Shown in pieces: positions 29,848 to 31,840 of a stretch of DNA of 34,475 nt. The position numbers and the translations under genes are program-made. This DNA is from Alphaproteobacteria bacterium. Lineage in GTDB: Bacteria; Pseudomonadota; Alphaproteobacteria; UBA9219. Every line of letters starts with the position of its first letter. Position 1 is the first letter of the stretch. The notes below the pieces were generated by a model that saw nothing but the letters and a program-made list of their open reading frames with translations, did not search any database and was not told where the DNA came from. The DNA lies in assembly GCA_031291395.1 (NCBI GenBank), contig JARLJD010000178.1:1-34475 (forward strand), read 5' to 3'.

Positions 29848-30720
29848 TTACGGTTGTTGCTGCGCATAAGGCTTGGCGACGCGCAGCGACTTAATCTTGG
29901 TTTCGTACTTGTCCAAAGTTTTGTCGACAAAACCGCTGTCGCGCAGATAACCAAGCGTCGTATTCAGCATAGCTTTAAACGCGGGCTCATTGGCGGGGAT
30001 CATCATGCCGATATCCAAAACGCGAACGGGAGCGCCTTCGGCGCGGCGCAACACCCCCGGATTAGACGCGTCATATTCGGCGAAAGAGCCTTGGTCTTCG
30101 ACAACTGCATCGGCCTTTTTCGTCGCTACCATAACATAAAGATCGGTAACGCTTGAAAGCTGCGGGACGGCTGCCGTATGAGCGGCGGGAAAATTCTCGC
30201 TCGCGCCGATAGCCGAAAATTCGCCGTCCATCGTGGCCATAGTCACATCCGGATTGTTGGCGCGCGCATAATTGTTATCAAAACGACTATCGTCTTTGCG
30301 AACGAATAAATAGACGGGTAAATACGTTATCGGCCCGACAAAATCGCCTTCACGAGCGCGCCCGGGCATCTCGCCAGCTATCGAACACATCGCGTCATAG
30401 CGGTTCATATTTAAATCGGAAATCATGTTTCCTGTACCAATTTCGGCAACCCAATCAATTTTCAGATTAAGCTGGCGTCCCATTTCTCCCAAAAGGTCGG
30501 CCATAACGCCGCTCATTTTACCGGTGTTGGGATCTTTCATCAAATAGGGCGGCGAAATGTAATATCCGCAGCGCAAGACGCCGGTGCGCTTGACTTGCTC
30601 TAACCGCGTTTCTTTAACTGGCGTAACTACAGCATCCTTACTCGCCGTCACATGCCTTGCTGTCGCAAACGCGACAGCAAAACTAAGAACGACGATCAGG
30701 GCGATTTGGGAGAGCTTCAT
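29848..30720 (-). CDS. Amino-acid ABC transporter solute-binding protein
   Basis: A 290-aa periplasmic protein of the SBP_bac_3 (HisJ/GlnH) family. The signal peptide is M-K-L-S-Q-I-A-L-I-V-V-L-S-F-A-V-A-F-A-T-A. The ligand-binding folds show V-K-R-T-G-V-L-R-C-G-Y-Y (about 45-56), P-Y-L-M-K-D-P-N-T-G-K-M-S-G, D-L-N-M-N-R-Y-D-A-M-C-S, then V-A-T-K-K-A-D-A-V-V-E-D-Q-G and the C-terminal L-R-D-S-G-F-V-D-K. It pairs with the permease and ATPase downstream to import a polar amino acid, the identity of which the sequence does not reveal. The ATG at 30720 has GGAG 7 bp upstream. The long upstream region (30721-31303) is shared with gcrA. Confidence 0.93.
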   Translation of the reverse strand: MKLSQIALIVVLSFAVAFATARHVTASKDAVVTPVKETRLEQVKRTGVLRCGYYISPPYLMKDPNTGKMSGVMADLLGEMGRQLNLKIDWVAEIGTGNMISDLNMNRYDAMCSIAGEMPGRAREGDFVGPITYLPVYLFVRKDDSRFDNNYARANNPDVTMATMDGEFSAIGASENFPAAHTAAVPQLSSVTDLYVMVATKKADAVVEDQGSFAEYDASNPGVLRRAEGAPVRVLDIGMMIPANEPAFKAMLNTTLGYLRDSGFVDKTLDKYETKIKSLRVAKPYAQQQP

Positions 30721-31303
30721 GTTCAATCTCCGGTTACGATCTTGCCGTTTTTTGACATAAATTAACGAATGAGTATAGAGAAGAATTTTTCTTTCAAAAG
30801 ATTGCCGCGCGATCAGGCACCAGTTGCGCGGTTTGAGCGTTTTAAAAAATGCGCCGTCGATGACGGCTGGGCGTGGAAGGTGGGATGCGTCGCGCAAACA
30901 CGCAACACGATTGCCCAAAACATAAAAACAAACGAATTTTTTAAAATGCGTCATCAAAATCGGAGCCACGATGTGTGCTTTGGAATCAAAACAGCCCAAG
31001 AAAGTTGTGGATAACTTCCCCGCACACCCCGAAATTCTCCCCCTATCCGATTCTCCTTTCCTGTGAATAAGTTAATAAAGTGTAAACGATTCATAAACTT
31101 ATAAACCAACATCTAGTACCTACCCACAATTCATCCACAATATGCAGTGTTTGGTAGAATCGATTCGCTCTCCGTGGTATGACCTTTGCTTGTAAGCCAC
31201 AAAATCTAGTGGTTCACAATCCAGAGTTTCAGGGGCTTGTTTCGGAATCGTACCGATTTTTGGGGCAAGCCTTTCCCGCCAACGAACCACCAGGAGTTGA
31301 ATC
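30721..31303. promoter_or_regulatory. gcrA control region: GANTC cluster, DnaA-like boxes, CtrA-like site
   Basis: The 583-bp gap has no convincing gene. GANTC methylation sites fall at 30983, 31049, 31088, 31157, 31162, 31255 and 31299; that is seven in 321 bp, where about one is expected by chance. A perfect DnaA box (TTATCCACA) lies on the minus strand at 31006-31014, a TTATTCACA at 31062-31070 (minus) and a one-mismatch box at 31131-31139 (plus). TTAA-N7-TAAAC at 31072-31087 differs by one base from the CtrA site. The segment around 31060-31110 is AT-rich. In Caulobacter DnaA activates gcrA and CtrA represses it, which fits; an origin of replication is the alternative. Confidence 0.7.
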
Positions 31304-31840
31304 ATGACTTGGACCGAGCAAAAAATCCAGACGCTCAAGGAAATGTGGGGCAATCACAGCGCCAGCGAGATTGCCGAGCATATCGGTGGTTTGACCCGCA
31401 ACGCCGTCATCGGCAAAGCGCATCGCCTCAAGCTCTCGGTTCAGAAAGCGGTCGGCGACACCCCGGGAACGGGGCTGCAACGCGCGAACGGCATAGGCGC
31501 GATCAAGACGCAACGCAAGCGCGTGATGATGCGCCAGATGCCCGTCGTTCCGACGACAGCCTCCGCAAGCCCCATGCGCGTCATTCCCACCGCCAAGGAT
31601 ATTTTCCGCTCTCTGGAAGGCATAGGAGGGGGCTTGCGCAGCGAAGGCATCGCGGTGACCAAGGCAGGAGAACGTCATTGCCGTTGGCCGGTCGGCGATC
31701 CGCGCTCACCCGATTTCCGCTTCTGCGGTTGCCCCGCGCACGACGGTTTGCCCTACTGCGTCGACCACGCCCGCGTCGCCTACCAGAACGTCAGCAAAAG
31801 GACGAGAGGCGCGTCGGTGAACGAAGAAACGGCGCGGTGA
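31304..31840 (+). CDS. gcrA: GcrA cell-cycle regulator
   Basis: A 178-aa protein. The N-terminal HTH domain (1-45) reads M-T-W-T-E-Q-K-I-Q-T-L-K-E-M-W, then S-A-S-E-I-A-E-H-I-G-G-L-T-R-N-A-V-I-G-K-A-H-R-L, the GcrA signature. The C-terminal part has the conserved R-H-C-R-W-P-V-G-D-P, F-C-G-C-P and Y-C-V-D-H-A-R cluster of Cys/His residues. GcrA binds sigma-70 RNA polymerase and activates promoters carrying methylated GANTC sites; it is specific to alphaproteobacteria. CAGGAG before the ATG supports the start, and a GANTC site touches the start codon. Middle residues about 50-100 form a variable basic linker, as in other GcrA proteins. The region upstream holds seven GANTC sites. Confidence 0.95.
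   Translation: MTWTEQKIQTLKEMWGNHSASEIAEHIGGLTRNAVIGKAHRLKLSVQKAVGDTPGTGLQRANGIGAIKTQRKRVMMRQMPVVPTTASASPMRVIPTAKDIFRSLEGIGGGLRSEGIAVTKAGERHCRWPVGDPRSPDFRFCGCPAHDGLPYCVDHARVAYQNVSKRTRGASVNEETAR

Follow-up and report, generated by a model that had tools for sequence, protein, structure and literature searches.

Predicted NrdR boxes in a probable composite gcrA promoter of an uncultured alphaproteobacterium

The gcrA gene of an uncultured alphaproteobacterium probably stands behind a composite promoter that is controlled by DnaA, by the CcrM/GcrA system and, newly, by NrdR. GcrA is a link between chromosome methylation and the cell cycle. NrdR is a dATP/ATP sensor regarded as an RNR-specific repressor, and its operator normally allows the synthesis of DNA building blocks to be shut off. 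Two 16-bp palindromes (boxes A and B) flank the gcrA core promoter 62 bp apart, and the sequence evidence that these are NrdR boxes is strong. Because the same boxes stand at gcrA in a broad set of other lineages, gcrA looks like a recurrent and so far unrecognized member of the NrdR regulon in Alphaproteobacteria. We lean, with some reserve, toward the view that NrdR directly controls gcrA across much of this class, where it would feed dATP/ATP sensing into the CcrM/GcrA circuit and act as a dNTP checkpoint on S-phase transcription, in competition with DnaA at an overlapping site.

The gcrA locus and its predicted promoter

The window, the whole stretch of 34,475 nucleotides that was analyzed, is one entire contig of a 2.41-Mb MAG. 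Its gcrA gene (31304 to 31840, forward strand) encodes a cell-cycle transcription regulator of 178 amino acids, and the assignment of the initial annotation is borne out by a match to Pfam PF07750 (E = 3e-35). It is the sole full GcrA of the genome; a weak second GcrA-like N-terminus (L002, G000:C182:8651-8908, E = 2e-5) falls under the Pfam cut-off and is seen in several relatives too. The host encodes DnaA, a CcrM-type methylase with a RAMA domain, which gives it both CcrM and GcrA, and NrdR (TIGR00244, E = 5e-49, on contig C4 of its own genome, G000). The nrdR gene is near universal (76 of 79 genomes), and its presence is therefore necessary for membership in the NrdR regulon but uninformative as a discriminating test. 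The divergent neighbor of gcrA (29848 to 30720, reverse strand) is an SBP_bac_3 solute-binding protein (PF00497, E = 7e-16) and not an nrd gene. Upstream neighbors vary between relatives (HD-like proteins, CTP synthase or an ABC-2 permease, as judged by eye from translations) and none of those read are nrd genes, and we rejected on these grounds the idea that a divergent nrd gene owns one of the boxes.

In an alignment of 19 gcrA upstream regions from the family, the blocks conserved beyond the number of GANTC sites are DnaA boxes, a TAGAATC/TGGTATG core and the two palindromes. From this core we predict a weak -35 element, TAGAAT (31155 to 31160, forward strand), which lies in the family-conserved TAGAATC and overlaps a GANTC site, and, after a 17-bp spacer, a -10 element, TATGAC (TGGTATGAC, 31178 to 31183, forward strand), whose TGGTAT context recurs in nearly all 19 members. 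A scan of the gcrA upstream region with the sigma-70 consensus called no promoter, and conservation is the basis for placing both elements. Three DnaA boxes are conserved across the family at about -299, -243 and -174: a perfect one, TTATCCACA (31006 to 31014, reverse strand), and two with one mismatch each, TTATTCACA (31062 to 31070, reverse strand) and TCATCCACA (31131 to 31139, forward strand), the last of which shares CCACA with NrdR box A. The alignment also contains a degenerate CtrA-like TTAA-N7-TAAA (31072 to 31086, forward strand), which is weak and confined to the genus. The DnaA and NrdR boxes, both better conserved than the GANTC count, were overlooked in the initial annotation, and a view of this region that considers GANTC only misses these two conserved inputs.

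Predicted NrdR boxes at gcrA and their distribution

Box B (CCACAAAATCTAGTGG, 31197 to 31212, unstranded) is predicted to lie at about +7 to +22 from the transcription start site and scores 21.3 bits; box A (CCACAATATGCAGTGT, 31135 to 31150, unstranded) scores 14.7 bits and lies 62 bp upstream of box B. The weight matrix behind these scores was built from 16 boxes at nrd promoters of relatives and holds no gcrA sequence, and both palindromes match the NrdR boxes of the lineage as it describes them. They rank first and second in 464 kb of the host's own sequence, with a background maximum of 14.0 bits in the other 429 kb, and in a congener (G003) the gcrA boxes are likewise the best-scoring pair, here among 365 kb. 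Relative to the predicted promoter and start site, box A lies upstream of the -35 element and box B follows the start of transcription, so that the pair would flank the core promoter. Box A shares bases with a DnaA box, and DnaA may thus account for some of its conservation.

Pattern searches give a similar picture. The motif CACWANATNTWGTG occurs once in the 2.41-Mb genome, at gcrA, and zero to six times in each of eleven relatives, and its reversed control matches zero or one time per genome. Outside gcrA, strict palindromes stand upstream of nrdD in three relatives (G009, G016 and G010, identified by Pfam NRDD) and upstream of RNR genes in two more (G001 and G018); some further matches are scattered over unrelated loci, a dispersed element in G018 among them. 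A dispersed repeat-like element (CCACTATATGTTGTG...GACCAC), which carries NrdR-like palindromes, was seen in G018, G022 and G023 (loci L127, L132, L279 and L280), and one of its copies lies close to a gene resembling dCTP deaminase. A double palindrome with a gap of 18 to 48 bp is found at the gcrA promoter only in 10 of 33 genomes of the order, two g2 genomes having matches elsewhere; the reversed double palindrome matched in 1 of the 33.

When the nrd matrix is applied more widely, every one of the 28 gcrA upstream regions in the order scores at least 13 bits. Among other alphaproteobacterial families, 33 of 89 regions, spanning 28 families, reach at least 12 bits, and nearly two-thirds have no box at that threshold. 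Chance would yield 0.4 matches by order-1 shuffles and about 2.5 per equal length of flanking background (3 in 48.3 kb). At Micavibrio-like gcrA loci the matrix found no NrdR box in 58 cases. Four of these Micavibrio-like upstream regions (L217, L233, L241 and L253) hold 8 to 9 GANTC sites per 400 bp and one or two DnaA boxes with no NrdR box, and GANTC clusters at gcrA therefore recur independently of NrdR boxes.

The matrix carries no information on spacing, and the distance between paired boxes is therefore an independent check. Paired NrdR boxes are expected to lie a whole number of helical turns apart, canonically 31 bp from center to center (PMC12051234), and the RNR promoters of six genomes, the host's own class II RNR gene included, have motif pairs at exactly this distance. 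Spacing at gcrA is 62 bp in the host's genus (about six helical turns) and often 31 to 32 bp in distant genomes. The longer distance is dominant in the order, where 12 of 28 genomes carry their second box exactly 62 bp away; most relatives in the host's genus have two boxes, and some gcrA upstream regions have one good box. At class level, 9 of 19 second-best boxes lie 31 to 32 bp from the best one and two lie at 62 bp. This clustering at 31 to 32 bp has a binomial p of about 6e-10, or about 1e-8 after removal of one same-genus pair. Published tests of the spacer between NrdR boxes stop at 27 bp (PMC12051234), and the spacer here is 46 bp.

GANTC sites and possible methylation control

The initial annotation had proposed that a cluster of seven GANTC sites in the 321 bp upstream of gcrA, set against one expected per 256 bp, places the gene under strong CcrM control and possibly under its own control. 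The seven sites are there (30983, 31049, 31088, 31157, 31162, 31245 and 31299), two of them abut (31157 and 31162), and the last (31299 to 31303) adjoins the gcrA ATG at 31304, as described. We compared them with 464 kb of the same genome, about one-fifth of the total, in which GANTC occurs 2.78 times per kb; by crude ORF-based coding calls, the density is 2.50 per kb for coding and 4.71 per kb for noncoding DNA. By this measure 1.5 sites are expected per 321 bp of noncoding sequence, and the Poisson probability of at least seven is about 0.001. Only three 321-bp stretches in the 464 kb hold seven sites, and the other two, at L070:8843 and G000:C19:84508, are both coding DNA. Noncoding DNA is GANTC-rich in general in CcrM-bearing Alphaproteobacteria (PMC3973325), and for this reason the cluster is less extreme than the figure of one per 256 suggests: the local excess is real, but weaker than implied and chosen post hoc.

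Close relatives do not retain the dense cluster. Counts within 400 bp in eight members of the genus, the host included, are 7, 6, 2, 3, 1, 4, 2 and 7, with one to three sites in G002, G003, G004 and G007; half of what the initial annotation had itself named as speaking against its reading, loss of the sites in close relatives, was thus observed. The ratio of observed to expected GANTC at gcrA is 2.85 in the genus, 1.93 in the family, 1.46 in the order and 1.17 in the class. As the count varies from one to seven within a single genus, the figure of seven carries little and is mostly lineage noise. One congener with a 1.5-Mb genome (G004, locus L033) has a GC-poor gcrA upstream region in which GANTC is nearly absent, the DnaA boxes are degraded and the single NrdR box is weak, yet it has kept nrdR and a CcrM-like gene.

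Two GANTC positions are kept across relatives even as the count fluctuates. The tandem GAATCGATTC (31157 to 31166, forward strand) lies at the predicted -35 element and spacer, its first copy 18 bp upstream of TGGTA; 14 of 19 family members have a GANTC at precisely this distance from TGGTA(T), and nine of the 14 have a second at 13 bp, so that a conserved site at a fixed position lies within or next to the predicted promoter elements. A GATTC at about -217 (31088 to 31092, forward strand) is kept in 6 of 8 genus members. The other four are poorly conserved: an upstream pair without conservation (30983 and 31049, within 30983 to 31053, forward strand) and a pair in the predicted 5' untranslated region (31245 and 31299, within 31245 to 31303, forward strand). 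The gcrA gene of Agrobacterium tumefaciens, which CcrM methylation represses, has six GANTC sites within 250 bp (PMC11514494). The fixed-position GANTC and this precedent together make methylation control of gcrA plausible. Strong CcrM control, as originally proposed, is thus partly supported: it has in its favor the methylase, the fixed -35 site and the Agrobacterium case; the dense cluster itself, not being conserved, counts against it.

Proposed regulation, alternative readings and known systems

We propose the following model for the composite promoter. By analogy with Caulobacter, where DnaA directly activates C. crescentus gcrA (PMC3193534), the three DnaA boxes would let DnaA activate the gene around replication initiation. 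Through the GANTC overlapping the -35 element, promoter activity would respond to CcrM methylation and, by that route, to passage of the replication fork. NrdR loaded with dATP and ATP would bind both boxes, bridge them in helical phase and so kink the core promoter, and it may displace DnaA from the overlapping box (31131 to 31150). A dNTP surplus would then lower gcrA expression. The sign of NrdR regulation at gcrA is uncertain, because the single-box topA of Pseudomonas aeruginosa, a non-RNR target of NrdR, is activated and not repressed (PMC4409342).

It is accordingly conceivable, if improbable, that NrdR binds here as an activator and ties S-phase expression of gcrA to dNTP abundance. 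The topA case would support such a role, as would those gcrA upstream regions that have a single box. NrdR bends the promoter at nrd genes, and there boxes that flank or overlap the core promoter, as they would at gcrA, are the geometry of repression (PMC9110341); this, and the presence of two boxes in most relatives within the genus, argues for repression instead. A reading in which the promoter is controlled by CcrM/GcrA methylation, with transcription repressed by full methylation and restored in the hemimethylated state, and with palindromes that are incidental or bind something else, we regard as rather unlikely. It draws on the seven sites, on the fixed -35 GANTC in 14 of 19 relatives, on the CcrM-like methylase and on the six-site Agrobacterium precedent (PMC11514494). 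It must contend with a count of one to seven in the genus and an enrichment that fades with phylogenetic distance, and it leaves unaccounted for the match to NrdR boxes, the uniqueness of the palindrome in the genome and the class-wide pairing at 31 bp. Methylation control and NrdR control of gcrA are in any case mutually compatible.

Two other readings appear highly improbable. With its AT-rich sequence and three conserved DnaA boxes the region could be oriC, which would explain both the density and the conservation of GANTC, and in the window, a short contig, the skew reaches a local low near 31.8 kb. The DnaA boxes keep a fixed spacing from the gcrA promoter, however, and we rejected an origin here since, in three relatives with longer contigs (G002, G003 and G014), the GC skew has the same sign on both sides of gcrA. 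The palindrome after the start site might instead act in the gcrA leader as a folded RNA hairpin, for example as an sRNA target or for ribosome control; it does fall within the predicted 5' untranslated region, and the gcrA leader of Sinorhizobium meliloti, 122 nt long, contains an sRNA site close to the transcription start site (PMC4414408). A hairpin is disfavored by mismatches in the inner pair 5/12, which is unpaired in 8 of 20 sequences around a near-fixed middle of NATN. The same motif, moreover, lies upstream of nrd genes, and its partner box at gcrA lies upstream of the promoter.

If NrdR does control gcrA, the alphaproteobacterial cell-cycle circuit would read dNTP supply directly, and the reach of NrdR would extend past nrd genes and topA. 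In Caulobacter, raised dNTPs delay S-phase entry through an effector not identified there (PMC12186491), and NrdR acting on gcrA would offer a candidate route for this delay. Deletion of nrdR in Caulobacter, whose effect was interpreted as a prolonged swarmer phase and was synergistic with loss of the dNTPase (PMC12186491), does not agree with a simple scheme in which NrdR represses gcrA in that organism. The Dgt (FssC) pathway of Caulobacter resembles our model in linking dNTP level to cell-cycle progression, and differs in that it was proposed to be CtrA independent, with gcrA unmentioned (PMC12186491).

Our search for literature on NrdR jointly with GcrA or CtrA returned nothing relevant. 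A broad proteobacterial regulon study places NrdR under deoxyribonucleotide biosynthesis and does not name gcrA in its main text, and an earlier listing in a supplement or in RegPrecise is possible (PMC5343134). Measured against known systems, the gcrA promoter shares most with the nrd operators (nrdAB, nrdJ and nrdD): a 16-bp palindrome that would overlap or flank the core promoter, a paired arrangement that may be in helical phase, and an encoded NrdR. It differs from them in that the predicted target is a cell-cycle transcription factor, that the spacing in the genus is 62 and not 31 bp, and that one box overlaps a DnaA box. Like topA of P. aeruginosa, it has an NrdR box at a gene outside nucleotide reduction (PMC4409342); topA has a single box, is activated, belongs to a gammaproteobacterium and is not a cell-cycle regulator. 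The gcrA promoter of A. tumefaciens has a comparable upstream GANTC cluster, methylation dependent there and a candidate for such control here, although the cluster in our genome is not conserved in the genus, and the accessible part of that report does not discuss NrdR or DnaA sites (PMC11514494). The C. crescentus promoter likewise has upstream DnaA boxes (PMC3193534), and differs in that the literature we found reports no NrdR boxes there. What appears to be new here is a known operator at a conserved cell-cycle target, whose spacing in this genus departs from the usual one.
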